A stretch of 64,000 bases of DNA from Thalassomonas viridans. GTDB taxonomy: Bacteria; Pseudomonadota; Gammaproteobacteria; Enterobacterales; Alteromonadaceae. The position numbers and the translations under genes were made by a program. The notes beneath the pieces are model-generated. The model was not told the DNA's origin, searched no databases, and worked only from the letters and a program-made list of their open reading frames with translations. Shown piece after piece: positions 18,484-55,900 of the stretch; position 1 is the first letter of the stretch; every line of letters starts with the position of its first letter. The stretch lies in NCBI RefSeq assembly GCF_000948985.2, contig NZ_CP059733.1, forward strand, positions 4,154,001 to 4,218,000, in the 5' to 3' direction.

Positions 18484-18771
18484 CAATCTCCCGGCTATGG
18501 CTTAGCCCGAAATGAAAAATATGCTGGATTTAGCAGTATTTTCCCTTTTTTTTGTAAGCAAATGCCGCCCATAAAAGTATCCATATATTAATACCATTAA
18601 GTTTCAATTACTTAGCCTTTATGCCCTTAAGCCACTTATCTGGCGCTAATCTGCTGAGTTCCTTAACCTTTTAAAACCGTAATTTTATTTTTAATTGATT
18701 ATCATAAACTTAACTTAAATCCGACTACCGGTATTTTCATTGGTTGTTAACTATAATCAACCCCGACTTTG

Positions 18772-18857
18772 CTCTTGGTAAGGAAACCGAGAGGTTTTGT
18801 TTCCCCGCCATAAAGTACACCGGCGAAAAATCTTCCGGCAGGGCATTTCTTTGCCAT
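18772..18857 (+). promoter_or_regulatory. Structured 5' leader of the secreted duplicated-domain gene
   Basis: The 416-bp gap 18484-18899 is AT rich up to about 18760. Just before the gene there are alternative stems. CTCTTGG (18772-18778) can pair with CCGAGAG (18787-18793), or AAACC (18784-18788) with GGTTT (18793-18797) closing a GAGA tetraloop, extended outside by GGAAAC/GTTTCC. CGCC (18806-18809)/GGCG (18821-18824) and GGCA/TGCC pairs follow. The mutually exclusive stems suggest a regulatory leader, but it matches no riboswitch I recognise. Confidence 0.3.
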
Positions 18858-18899
18858 ATTTTTCGCTATCACCCATTTTCAACTTGATAAGGGAAGACA

Positions 18900-19355
18900 A
18901 TGAAATACTTAAACCATACAGAGAAAAAATCCGTGGCCATCAAAACAGCCGGTGTGTTGGCGCTTGCCTTTTGCTGGCCAATATCGGCAGCAAACACTGT
19001 CGTAGCCGCAGCAGAAGATCCGACAGGAGTATTGGATCATTTTATGTGTTACGACATAGAGGAGCAGCCTGCACCGGCTGATATTCATGTAAAAGTCAGG
19101 GATCAATTCCTCGAACAAGGCTACCGGGTACTGGAACTGACTAAACTGTGCGCCCCGGCAGAGAAGCACCATAACGGCAAAATTTTTGAAATCAAATATG
19201 AGTTTGCCCATCTGGCCTGCTATAACGTTCAGCCGGATGAAATGCCTGCGGCCAACGCCCATGTGAACCTGTATAACCAATTCGGCTCATATGAAAAGCT
19301 GTTTGTTTACCGTGTCAGGGAAATATGCGTACCGACAATCAAAGAACACCTGTAA
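18900..19355 (+). CDS. Secreted protein with two tandem Cys-containing repeats (DUF7450-like)
   Basis: AAGGGAAG lies 4 nt before the ATG. The 151-residue product begins with a signal sequence (VLALAFCWPISAANTVVAAAED) and then holds two similar units: LDHFMCYDIEE..DIHVKVRDQFLEQGYRVLELTKLCAPAEK and LAHLACYNVQP..NAHVNLYNQFGSYEKLFVYRVREICVPTIK. Each has one Cys in the CYxI/V core and one near its end, so two disulfides are likely. Such H-x-x-CY...DQF...LCxPxxK units occur in secreted proteins of unknown function. It appears monocistronic. Confidence 0.7.
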   Translation: MKYLNHTEKKSVAIKTAGVLALAFCWPISAANTVVAAAEDPTGVLDHFMCYDIEEQPAPADIHVKVRDQFLEQGYRVLELTKLCAPAEKHHNGKIFEIKYEFAHLACYNVQPDEMPAANAHVNLYNQFGSYEKLFVYRVREICVPTIKEHL

Positions 19356-19574
19356 CTGGCGGCGGTTAAACTTATTTACAAAAACTGCAGTTAGCCGCTA
19401 AGCTAAAATTACCTACAATCTTTATGGCCAGCAGTCATGGCCATATTCAGCTCCCCCTTCCCCGGCGCCTTTTTATACTGGCCCTGTGTAAGTCCCAGCT
19501 AAATAAAACAGGCCTTAGTGCATTTATCGGACAAGGAACGATGAAATAGCAGGCAAACCTTAGCTGCAGGGCGC

Positions 19575-19591
19575 ATTACACGGCGTGTAAT
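19575..19591. promoter_or_regulatory. Perfect dyad ATTACAC-N3-GTGTAAT, candidate operator
   Basis: In the 337-bp gap before the small gene at 19693, ATTACAC (19575-19581) and GTGTAAT (19585-19591) form a perfect dyad with a 3-nt centre. It is followed by a second half-like TACCATGTAATACC. It is about 100 bp before the gene, where a repressor or activator could bind. The rest of the gap shows only another partial dyad (ATGGCCA / TGGCCAT near 19424-19444). Confidence 0.35.
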
Positions 19592-19692
19592 ACCATGTAA
19601 TACCGTTTTCTGATGAAAACACCTAACATAGCCTTGCTTGAATTAAATTGATGTAAATGGATTTTTTTCATCATAAAAACCGGGGAAATAAC

Positions 19693-19968
19693 ATGGTTTC
19701 CATTAACAAAAACAAGGGTAATAGGGTGTATTTCGAAATATTAAACAAGACACAGCAGCAGATGTCTCAAATTGAAAAAGCAATGGCGGGAGAATATAAA
19801 AACGCCGATTTTATGCTGGAAATCACCGAACCGGACAGCCCGCTTTCCTCCATGGAGATGGAAAATTTTGTTGATACCACCCCAGACAGTGAAAATAGCT
19901 GCCACTCACTCGATCAAGTATTCAACTCTGTTCTGATGAAACGGCTGTCGAGCCTGAAAAACAAATAG
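19693..19968 (+). CDS. Small hypothetical protein
   Basis: I place the start at ATG 19693 (MVSINKNKGNRVYF), after GGGGAAATAAC; an in-frame ATG at 19657 gives a longer, less convincing N-terminus (MDFFHHKNRGNN). The 91-residue product is hydrophilic with no signal peptide, helix-rich in the middle (LNKTQQQMSQIEKAMAGEYK), and acidic toward the end. I recognise no family. A clear terminator follows at 20037. Confidence 0.5.
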   Translation: MVSINKNKGNRVYFEILNKTQQQMSQIEKAMAGEYKNADFMLEITEPDSPLSSMEMENFVDTTPDSENSCHSLDQVFNSVLMKRLSSLKNK

Positions 19969-20036: not shown

Positions 20037-20071
20037 CCGATAGGTAGCCAGTGCTGTCTATCGGCTTTTTT
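20037..20071 (+). terminator. Rho-independent terminator
   Basis: CCGATAG (20037-20043) pairs with CTATCGG (20058-20064) and is followed by CTTTTTTG. It terminates the small gene at 19693-19968 and insulates it from the downstream FNR-type promoter. Confidence 0.75.
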
Positions 20072-20118
20072 GTTAGACCTTAAAAAATTTCCTTTATTTA
20101 TTGTGATGTTACCCAGTT

Positions 20119-20160
20119 TTGATTCAGATCAAGAAATCCCGTCAATCGCTGGCTTAGAAT
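20119..20160 (+). promoter_or_regulatory. Class II FNR-type promoter
   Basis: TTGAT-TCAG-ATCAA at 20119-20132 matches the FNR consensus perfectly. A TAGAAT -10 hexamer lies at 20155-20160. Counting from the box centre (20125.5) by 41.5 bp places the start of transcription near 20167, exactly 7 bp after the -10 hexamer, which is the geometry of a class II FNR-activated promoter. No normal gene follows on this strand, only a short region ending in a strong hairpin plus T run. Confidence 0.65.
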
Positions 20161-20166
20161 AACTTC

Positions 20167-20331
20167 GTGGCATTAACCTCAACTCGTGCCATTTTCATAT
20201 TACAGGAAGGAAATAATCAGCAGTTTTGGACACACAAATTGGTTATTTCGTATTGCCTATAAAAGAAAGGTCAAACTGAAAAGCATTGCTGGATACTGGC
20301 TTTAAAGTTATTTTTGACCTTTCTTTTTTTT
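20167..20331 (+). ncRNA. Candidate FNR-activated small RNA of about 165 nt
   Basis: The region runs from the predicted start of the FNR-type promoter to an intrinsic-terminator-like end. A perfect 15-bp inverted repeat (AAAAGAAAGGTCAAA, 20261-20275; TTTGACCTTTCTTTT, 20313-20327) runs into a tract of eight T (20324-20331). The 37-nt loop can itself form a small stem (AAAGC/GCTTT). The logic resembles enterobacterial FnrS, but no sequence similarity is claimed. A 39-codon frame (GTG 20186 to TAA 20303) lies inside, with AGGAAGG internal to it rather than upstream, so a small mRNA cannot be excluded. The hairpin may also terminate the opposing gene at 20361. Confidence 0.5.
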
Positions 20332-20360
20332 ATGTCTCATTATTAAATCGCTCCACCATA

Positions 20361-20870
20361 TCACCTGGCATTCGCCGGTAAATCACTGAAATTGGATAAT
20401 AAAAACAAAGCAGAGCTGTCTTTGACACAGCAGTTGATAAATTGCGGCTGATAATCAGACCCCGCCAGATAAGCCGCCATATCGAAATTAGGATCGTCCA
20501 TCCGGTTAATTATCTCTTCCGGCACCGCCAGCCGGGTAGCCAGCATCATGCGGTAACTGTATCTTTGATGATAGATTTCCTTTAGAAAAAACATGTCATA
20601 ACGTATCCCTTCCCCTTCCAGCCGGCTTGGGGTAAGGATAAACTCGGCGATGGCGATCGCCACTAAAGTAAATTTGGTTCTTCTGTCGTTATTCGGACTC
20701 AGCTTGATCACCGGCTTTTTATCTTCTTCAGATAAAGTAATCTGACATAAATCCGTCAGCTGGCGGTCAAGTTCAATTTTGATATTAAAAAATTCCGTGA
20801 TTTCCTTTAAATTCACTTTGCCATCATGGGTGCTGCTTTTGATTAATTTTTCAAGAACCGACGGGATCAT
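20361..20870 (-). CDS. Degenerate ImmA/IrrE (M78)-like protein lacking the zinc motif
   Basis: This 169-residue soluble protein has GGAG before its ATG. The stretch RTKFTLVAIAIAEFIL aligns with the M78 motif RxxFTLAHELGHFLL, but the HExxH residues are AIAIA. Further on, YRMMLATRLAVPEEIINR aligns with ExEANxFAAxLLMPEE, with the metal-ligand glutamate also lost. The fold similarity is inferred by eye; if correct this is a non-catalytic member. No partner antitoxin, HTH gene or phage gene lies beside it. Confidence 0.5.
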   Translation of the reverse strand: MIPSVLEKLIKSSTHDGKVNLKEITEFFNIKIELDRQLTDLCQITLSEEDKKPVIKLSPNNDRRTKFTLVAIAIAEFILTPSRLEGEGIRYDMFFLKEIYHQRYSYRMMLATRLAVPEEIINRMDDPNFDMAAYLAGSDYQPQFINCCVKDSSALFLLSNFSDLPANAR

Positions 20871-52909: not shown

Positions 52910-55900
52910 TTATATTTGTCCTTGTGATTGAAGTTTTGTTGTATCCAGGTTGTCTGCCGTGCGGGCTTCCTTGCCATGAAGCAAGCGGTACAGTGCCGGC
53001 AGCACAAACAAAGTTAAAATAGTGGAAGAAATAATACCGCCGATCACCACAGTCGCCAACGGCCGCTGTACTTCAGAACCTATACCGGTATTGATCGCCA
53101 TGGGAACAAAGCCCAGGGAAGCCACCAGGGCCGTGGTTAACACCGGCCTTAACCGGGTCAGCGCCCCTTTAATAATGGCCTCATCCAAAGCCAGCTTGTC
53201 CTTGCGCAGCTCGCGGATAAAGGACACCATCACCAAGCCGTTTAATATCGCGATCCCCGACAGGGCGATAAAGCCGACGGCTGCGGATATGGAAAAGGGA
53301 ATATCCCTTAATAGCAGGGCAAAAATGCCGCCGGTCAGGGCCAAAGGCACACCGGTGAAGATGATCATGGCATCTTTAAAGGATGAAAGCGCCAGCAGCA
53401 ACAAACCTATGATCAGCAACAGGGTCACCGGCACCACTATGCTTAACCTTTGCGATGCCGACTCCAGCTTCTGGTAAGTGCCGCCGTATTCCACCCAGTA
53501 ACCGGACGGCAATTGCACCTTACTGTCGATAGCGGACTTAATGTCATTGACAAAACTGCCGAGATCCCGGCCGCGGACATTGGCGGTCACCACCACGCGG
53601 CGTTTGCCGTTTTCCCGGTTTACCTGGTTGGCACCGGCAACCAGCTCAATATCAGCAACTTCCTGCAGCGGTACGAATCCGCCCGCACTCAGGTGGATCG
53701 GCAGCTGGTTGAGGCTTTGTACATCGCTTCTTTGCTGCTCCGGCAGGCGGACCACGATATCGAAACGCCTGTCCCCCTGATAGAATTTCCCCACAGACTC
53801 ACCGCCTAACGCAATAGCCACCTGCTGCTGCAAATCCGCTTTGGCAAGGCCGTAAGCCGCCAGACGCTCATCTTTCGGGATCAGGGTCAATATCGGCAAG
53901 CCAGTAGTCTGCTCCACCTGCACATCGGCTATGCCGTCAACGCCGGCAATGGCCGACTCGATTTCTTTGCCAAGGCCCGCCAGGGTATCGAAATCATCAC
54001 CGAAAACCTTGATCGCCAGCTCGGCACGCACGCCTGCCAATAGCTCGTTAAAACGCATCTGGATGGGCTGTAAAAACTCATAGCGGTTGCCGGGTACCGG
54101 GATTACCTGGGCTTCCAGCTCGCGCACCAGCTGCGCCTTGGGCTTGTCCGGATCCGGCCATAATTCCCGCGGTTTGATAATAATAAAGTTATCGGCCACG
54201 CTCGGCGGCACGGCATCGGTTGCCACATCGGCGGTACCGACCTTGGCAAAAACCCGCTCCACCTCAGGCAAACGCTGAATACGCTCTTCCAGCGCTTTTT
54301 GCATTTCGATAGACTGACTTAACGAAGTGCCGGGAATACGCAGTGCATGCATGGCAATATCCCCTTCATCAAGATTAGGTACGAACTCGCTGCCCATTTT
54401 CGTCGCCATAAAACCCGCGCCGGAAACCAGCATCACGGCGGCAGCCACCACCAGCCAGCGGGCCTTAAGCACAAAGGTTAATACCGGGTGATAAAATGCC
54501 TCGCTCGCCTTCATGATCATATTGTCTTTTTCAACAACCGGCCCTTTAAACATCAGGGCGATGGCAGCCGGTACAAAAGTTACCGACAAGATCATGGCAC
54601 TGACCAGGGCGATCACTACTGTGATGGCCATGGGGTGGAACATTTTCCCTTCCACCCCGGAAAGGGCGAAAATAGGCAGATATACGGCGGTGATGATAAA
54701 GACCCCGAATAACGCCGGGCGTATCACTTCCCGGGTAGCTTCAAACACCAATGCCAGGCGTTCATTTAGCGGCAATGTTTTGCTATGGGACGCCTGGCTT
54801 AAACGGCGCATACAGTTTTCAACTATGATGATGGCGCCGTCCACCAGCAGGCCGAAATCCAGCGCCCCCAGGCTCATCAGGTTGGCGCTGACCCCGGTTT
54901 GCACCATGCCGGTGACTGTCATCAGCATGGCAAAAGGGATCACCGCCGCCGTAAGCAAGGCCGCCCTGAAGTTGCCCAGCAACAGGAACAGGATCACTAT
55001 CACCAGGATAGCCCCTTCCGTTAAATTGGTTTTCACTGTGTCTAAGGTTTTGTTGACCAGCCTGGTCCTGTCATAAACCGCGGTAGCCACTATGCCCTCG
55101 GGCAGGCTTTTATTGATCTGCGCCAGCTTCTCCCCGACATCTTTGGCCACCTTCTGGCTGTTCTCGCCGATAAGCATAAACACTGTGCTCATCACCACTT
55201 CACGGCCATTTTGCGTGGCGGCGCCGGATCTCAGCTCTTTGCCTTCTTTCACTTCGGCAACGTCTTTTATCTTCAACCCCAAACCGGTTTTTGCGGCGAT
55301 CGGCACATTGGCCAGCTGCTCAAGGTCCGCCAGCTGGCCGGGCAAACGCACCAGCCACTGGGCGCCGTTTCGCTCGATAAAGCCCGCGCCGCGGTTCTGG
55401 TTATGCTCGCCGACGGCGCGGATCACATTCTGCTGGCTTAACCCGTGGGCAAGCAGTTTTTCCGGCTTGATGGCGATCAGGATTTCTCTTTTGAAACCAC
55501 CGATGGGGTTCACTTCAACCACGCCTTCCACCTGCATCAGCTGGGGGCGGATAATCCAGTCATGTACGGTACGCAAATCTGTCGGCGTGACCGCACTGCC
55601 GTCTTCATTAGTGGCCCCCGGCAAAGAGTCCACGGTAAACATGAAGATCTCGCCAAGCCCGGTTGAAATCGGCCCCAGCTCAGGCTCTAAGCCCAGGGGC
55701 AGATCGGCTTTTGCACCATTGAGTTTTTCCCCCACCAGCTGGCGGGCAAAATAAACATCGGTTTCGTCGGTAAAAATAGCCACCACCTGCGACAGGCCGT
55801 AACGGGACACAGAGCGGGTATTGACCAGACCGGGTACGCCCGCCAATGCCGTTTCCAGCGGAAAGGTCACGCGCTGTTCCACTTCCAGCGGCGTATAGCC

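Follow-up and report, generated by a model that had tools for sequence, protein, structure and literature searches.

Small RNAs (sRNAs) controlled by FNR have been described in few lineages, as far as the portions of the literature at hand go (PMC8139620, PMC3032703, PMC9308961). According to passages of one of these studies, fnrS of E. coli carries a class II FNR site at −41.5, and no fnrS homolog had been seen outside the Enterobacteriaceae as of 2011 (PMC3032703). The same passages describe an anaerobically induced "fnrS" in Neisseria gonorrhoeae as a likely functional equivalent, and part of a review names fnrS and narS as FNR-controlled (PMC8139620). PhrS of Pseudomonas aeruginosa, a 213-nt RNA with a 37-aa frame, is activated by ANR, as stated in an excerpt from a further report (PMC9308961). 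The titles and abstract openings of papers on Thalassomonas small RNAs describe no such RNA, and a literature search for Colwelliaceae sRNAs found no paper.

We analyzed a locus at positions 20119 to 20331 of the window, by which we mean the whole 64-kb stretch of DNA under study, and consider it likely to be a free-standing, genus-specific gene for a base-pairing sRNA activated by FNR. Upstream, on the plus strand, lies a small gene (frame 19657 to 19968, likely start at 19693). A terminator-like stem belonging to that gene (20037 to 20064, plus strand), found by the terminator scan and kept in an alignment of four genomes, separates it from the sRNA unit. Downstream, a convergent gene occupies the minus strand at 20361 to 20870. 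The upstream stem and the opposite-strand gene downstream were both counted in favor of a free-standing unit.

The unit begins with the FNR box TTGATTCAGATCAA (20119 to 20132, plus strand), a perfect palindrome centered at 20125.5, and a −10 hexamer, TAGAAT, can be read at 20155 to 20160. The −10 and the class II geometry together point to transcription starting at the G at 20167, which would put the box center at −41.5, the position of a class II FNR site. An earlier note on this DNA had pointed out both the perfect TTGAT-N4-ATCAA box and the TAGAAT at class II spacing, and both were confirmed. The box is the sole perfect TTGATN4ATCAA in the window, but it is unremarkable by itself, since dinucleotide shuffles of the window contained a mean of 0.10 perfect boxes, with at least one in 10 of 100 shuffles. 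On the other hand, of the 127,988 window positions on the two strands, 409 (0.32%) begin a −10 equal to or better than TAGAAT. The chance of one this good at a given position is thus 0.0032, and a box followed by such a −10 at class II spacing is rare, at about 3 in 10,000 such windows when the two are multiplied as independent. The sigma-70 promoter scan did not list a promoter at 20155 to 20160.

To see how the unit has fared within the genus, we compared the window genome (G000, 7.9 Mb) with three further Thalassomonas genomes (G001, G002, and G003). All 14 bases of the box were invariant in the four genomes, compared with 14 to 19 identical bases per genome pair in the 22 nt of spacer that follow. 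The distance from the box to the −10 was constant throughout. The hexamer itself was identical in three of the four, with a still −10-like TAAAAT in G003, and the predicted +1 was always a purine (A in G002 and G003). Each relative shares with the window 158 of 164 to 165 RNA bases, and 92 to 94 of the 96 nt lying between the promoter and the terminator-like hairpin. As a neutral yardstick, we took the four-fold sites of two neighboring genes, a 169-aa gene (29/47, 31/48, and 35/49 sites shared between the window and the relatives) and a GH18 gene (44/80, 39/79, and 39/79), which keep 49 to 71% of such sites in comparisons of the window with each relative. The edges of conservation are sharp at the box and past the U-tail, with identity falling to 10 to 12 of the 29 bases directly 3′ of the latter. 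Given a near-invariant unit set against diverged four-fold sites and flanks, selection appears to hold exactly the unit predicted. We regard this conservation as the decisive evidence that the arrangement probably reflects more than chance. The earlier note had named conservation of the box and the hairpin in close relatives beforehand as a test of its reading, and both were kept in all four Thalassomonas genomes.

The predicted RNA spans about 165 nt (20167 to 20331, plus strand), with 155 of 166 alignment columns invariant across the four genomes. Its folding energy is −40.9 kcal/mol (z = −3.39), which none of 200 shuffles equaled. The portion before the terminator is mildly unusual (z of −1.00 to −1.76 across the four genomes). 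Much of the whole-RNA z score is due to the terminator, and a claim from structure alone is weak. The 5′ hairpin (20167 to 20192; 7 pairs; −6.6 kcal/mol; z = −2.12; 6 of 200 shuffles equally stable) presents the loop UAACCUCAACUC, which is invariant in all four genomes and is the likely seed. Two genomes close the bottom of this hairpin with G-U, the other two with A-U. A second, imperfect hairpin (20210 to 20249), predicted in all four genomes, is weak, with mild stability, one 1-nt indel, and no double-sided change. At the 3′ end, folding and the consensus give an intrinsic-terminator-like hairpin of 15 pairs with a U8 tail (20261 to 20331), whose arms lie at approximately 20261 to 20275 and 20313 to 20327 in the four-genome consensus and whose T run covers 20324 to 20331. 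A 15-bp hairpin running into eight T residues had been proposed earlier. The stem and the T run stood, and the description was corrected by a loop of about 37 nt that encloses a small inner stem. The length of the loop counts against the proposal and explains why a scan for short-loop terminators omitted the hairpin. One stem pair shows a double-sided change, from G-C in the window to A-U in the three relatives, and in G003 one further pair is disrupted. This single change is all the double-sided covariation among four genomes of one genus, and so little is expected at such high identity.

All four Thalassomonas genomes encode the proteins that the proposed RNA would need. FNR (NF008365) scored above the curated cut-off in each, and we read in the protein a CX2CX5C motif with a further Cys, residues which we take to be the Fe-S cluster ligands, and a recognition helix presumably like that of E. 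coli FNR. The Hfq gene was likewise found in all four. Perfect FNR boxes numbered 43, 54, 47, and 39 in G000 to G003, against 8, 1, 0, and 0 copies of the reversed pattern; this control contains CTA/TAG, which by itself may account for its rarity. For the neighborhoods of the G001 boxes, we opened 20 stretches representing 22 of the 54 boxes, and 10 proteins encoded in 7 of these stretches were scanned. Scores above the cut-off were obtained for an HPF/YfiA protein and for an activating protein of the NrdG type, as well as for a uroporphyrinogen-III methyltransferase, at both the subfamily and the domain level. Another box adjoins a cytochrome c gene followed by a gene for a COX1-domain protein. 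The rest could be named only broadly (PAS sensors) or fell below the cut-off. Some box neighbors are thus of an anaerobic type (NrdG and the cytochrome c/COX1 pair), and this uncontrolled sample would fit an FNR regulon. As a separate observation, one G001 locus (L159; G001:C1:6102800-6104900) carries a pair of perfect FNR boxes at a distance of 49 bases (at 1043 and 1092), downstream of the uroporphyrinogen-III methyltransferase gene and ahead of a gene that matches an alginate-export Pfam family at 32.9 bits (cut-off, 25.2). The window itself also contains two one-mismatch boxes, at 18695 to 18708 and 54174 to 54187 (TTGATTATCATAAA and TTGATAATAATAAA, respectively).

Whether the unit is coding was the main alternative raised by the earlier note, which had suggested that a 39-codon GTG frame could make a small protein. 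The frame exists in the window (20186 to 20305), but a TGA halts it after 18 codons in all three relatives, which favors an RNA over a tiny mRNA and leaves little of the small-protein option. A leaderless frame from the predicted +1 is the other way in which the transcript could act as a tiny FNR-regulated mRNA or a dual-function RNA. A start codon falls exactly at this position in all four genomes (GTG in two and ATG in two), followed by 25 codons common to the genomes save one N/D change, and a 37-aa frame is known from PhrS of Pseudomonas, as an excerpt on that RNA states (PMC9308961). This +1 frame has no stable end, however, running for 31 codons in the window, 71 in G001, 63 in G002, and 37 in G003, so that it overruns the terminator in G001 and G002. 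The ends differ due to a 1-nt indel and substitutions after the shared codons, and a leaderless frame cannot have a Shine-Dalgarno sequence. In the three relatives, AGGAAGGAAATG opens a further frame, of 9 codons and with a good ribosome site, but in the window ATA stands in place of its ATG. No conserved internal reading frame of the PhrS kind was found among the four Thalassomonas genomes, and we consider translation of the 39-codon or the +1 frame improbable.

Two further alternatives concern the function of the conserved stretch. The stretch could be conserved regulatory DNA plus a terminator serving the convergent minus-strand gene at 20361 to 20870, with any transcript incidental. In favor of this, 29 nt separate the end of the U-tail from the stop codon of that gene, and the DNA past the hairpin is T-rich whichever way it is read. 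We judge this reading very improbable, because it leaves unexplained both the 96 near-invariant nucleotides between the promoter and the hairpin and the inward-pointing FNR box and −10 with their constant spacing. A CsrA/RsmA protein-titrating sponge, in place of a base-pairing sRNA, seems to us slightly less probable still. In its favor, the 165 nt hold four GGA motifs and AGGAAGGA is conserved. However, CsrB/RsmZ-type RNAs carry many GGA loops, far more than these four in the case of CsrB, and conservation here takes in nearly the whole sequence beyond the GGA loops. An FNR-activated sRNA therefore stays our preferred reading, in keeping with the earlier note, which had proposed one in this intergenic gap. 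The features of that class, i.e., box, promoter, noncoding body, and terminator-like hairpin, are conserved together in all four genomes and support it.

The RNA appears to be confined to Thalassomonas. A BLAST search with 261 nt against 59 relatives gave, among the matches listed, long ones only in the four Thalassomonas genomes, the remaining listed matches being weak and 15 to 48 nt long. A covariance model run over a family sample of 147 genomes, with strict filters that lose weak matches, recovered the same four Thalassomonas genomes plus one match at E = 0.24. We rejected the latter as a homolog, as its 3.1-kb locus lacks an FNR box, and there was no credible homolog in the 143 other family genomes sampled. 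An exact degenerate pattern of the 5′ hairpin, searched over genome contigs in a manner that may omit records near the window genome, returned 17 stretches, one of them from Thalassomonas (sp. RHCl1, NZ_CANDNZ010000005.1). The other 16 scored at most 20.7 bits with the full model (best E = 0.024, a Bacteroidales contig) and were taken as chance. Synteny could not widen the homolog search because the neighboring genes are so narrowly distributed, the 103-aa neighbor occurring in 4 of 59 genomes, all Thalassomonas, and the 169-aa neighbor in 5 of 59. At Rfam gathering scores, neither FnrS nor any other family gave a match in the 64-kb window, and a search by E-value over 20100 to 20345 gave four chance-like, unrelated families, none of them FnrS. 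As far as these searches reach, the RNA would thus constitute a new sequence family.

We also noted some features of the DNA around the locus. The gene starting at 19693, a small orphan gene, is unevenly conserved within the genus. In its first half, 42 of 45 third positions are identical between the window and each relative and all 45 among the relatives; the second half has diverged, with 28 to 32 of 46 third positions identical between the window and each relative. Parts of the sequence upstream of this gene, including the repeated motif GTAATACC, are also conserved, and 19580 to 19830 may hide another RNA element, although Rfam gave no match for this interval. For the segment from 18484 to 19538, which contains a DUF7450 protein (18900 to 19355), BLAST aligned both flanks with the 3.2-kb loci of the three relatives but not the segment itself, which is perhaps species-specific.

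We searched for possible mRNA targets of the loop in the four genomes. The seed complement AGTTGAGG occurs 3 to 11 nt before an ATG at 77 places, sRNA genes included, with counts against the reversed control of 17/23 in G000, 23/12 in G001, 22/13 in G002, and 15/9 in G003. When 20 of these stretches were read, the ATG opened a frame of at least 100 codons in three, belonging twice to a TPR gene and once to a thioesterase-domain protein; a 51-codon frame with a AGTTGAGG match was seen in G001 and G003. A longer loop complement, GAGTTGAGGTTAA, with at most one mismatch, exceeded its control in every genome (24/9, 13/6, 19/3, and 22/1 in G000 to G003), with a recurring 13-mer, GAGTTCAGGTTAA, making up 15/24, 2/13, 2/19, and 9/22 of these places. 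In G000, GAGTTCAGGTTAA forms two inverted pairs 220 bases apart and is probably a dispersed repeat. Of 32 GAGTTGAGGTTAA places read at 30 loci, only one had a frame of at least 80 codons 0 to 24 nt downstream. A second possible seed, CCTGTAATATGAAAA, searched as a start-codon seed with at most two mismatches, fell below its control in all four genomes. Eight of its stretches were read, and in three (L221, L224, and L227) the ATG lies in frames of 229, 271, and 461 codons, with one or two mismatches each. The two neighboring genes were rejected as targets, their pairing being no better than that of shuffles (187 and 160 of 200 as good).

The TPR-protein gene (G000:C1, ATG at 2887930) was the sole case, among the part of the 77 places that was opened, of a AGTTGAGG site before a long frame recognized in all four genomes. 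It lies in a run of AMP-ligase-like, heme-oxygenase-like, SDR-like, TPR, response regulator, and sensor kinase genes, of which TPR was confirmed by Pfam and the others were named by reading. The pairing comprises 8 bp at the ribosome site and a 7-bp match (sRNA CCAUUUU, mRNA AAAAUGG), both present in all four genomes, and of 200 shuffled target sequences for each of the three genomes tested, 0, 1, and 1 paired equally well. With the window RNA, the TPR copies of the four genomes had accessibility scores of −10.8 to −12.6, compared with −10.1 for the best start region in a sample of 238 drawn from 320 kb of window-genome sequence, for a target preselected for the 8-mer in a genome of thousands of genes. 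The best-scoring pairing is bipartite in G003 only and a plain 8 bp in the other three, and unrelated coding windows can reach raw duplex energies just as low (−22 to −25.7). The conservation of the pairing region has another cause, since this region shares sequence with the end of the upstream gene, which is itself conserved. At 23 matching loci outside the genus, no AGTTGAGG was found in the start windows, another frame having been taken in L254, L267, and L272. We therefore hold the TPR-gene start region to be a weak, preselected lead that is unlikely to prove a real target. In the target searches of the four genomes, all with an Hfq gene, this lead is not a classic FnrS target.

Taken together, these features suggest the following mechanism for the proposed sRNA. 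At low oxygen, Fe-S FNR would bind the box at −41.5 and recruit RNA polymerase to 20155 to 20160, an activation step that we infer from the geometry, the conservation, and the presence of FNR. The resulting transcript, about 165 nt long and starting near 20167, would end at the hairpin/U8 terminator and, as the genome comparison supports, would probably stay untranslated. It may be bound by Hfq, whose gene is encoded, and may base-pair with mRNAs. The invariant 5′ loop UAACCUCAACUC would be the most likely site of pairing, as its CCUC core could cover a Shine-Dalgarno sequence and so repress translation; the best candidate target would be the ribosome-binding region of the TPR gene ahead of the response regulator/sensor kinase pair. 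The class II FNR link is well supported by the sequence; transcription, Hfq binding, and pairing are inferred. More speculatively, and with doubt similar to that on the TPR lead, the loop (nt 11 to 18) and the 3′ side of the hairpin (nt 23 to 29) might together clamp the TPR-gene ribosome-binding region, by which an oxygen-responsive sRNA born in Thalassomonas would join FNR to an envelope/signaling operon. If so, the level of a two-component system would be set by oxygen limitation, with an RNA that has no known relative outside the genus as the intermediary. With a defined loop, for which CCUCAACU is a designed altered form, and a named target lead, the proposal is directly testable.

Compared with the described systems, the Thalassomonas RNA resembles FnrS of the Enterobacteriaceae, as characterized in passages of PMC3032703, in that a class II FNR site centered at −41.5 precedes a short RNA, and differs from it in having no Rfam sequence or structure match. 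The N. gonorrhoeae fnrS, likened here by its published description, belongs to a distant lineage and shares with it the class II FNR site, the −10, the short transcript, and the Rho-independent terminator, as given in the same passages. PhrS, as described in part of PMC9308961, is also an sRNA under an FNR-type regulator and is the nearest parallel with an internal frame, whereas the internal frames in Thalassomonas are not conserved and no Rfam match to PhrS exists either. An FnrS-like build, combined with the lack of an Rfam match and a range limited to one genus, points to a new sequence family of a kind already known. If expressed, the RNA would be another case of distant bacteria building a circuit of an FNR class II promoter and a short RNA from different sequence. 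The best reading, in our view, is that it may work like FnrS, and we claim no kinship to FnrS.
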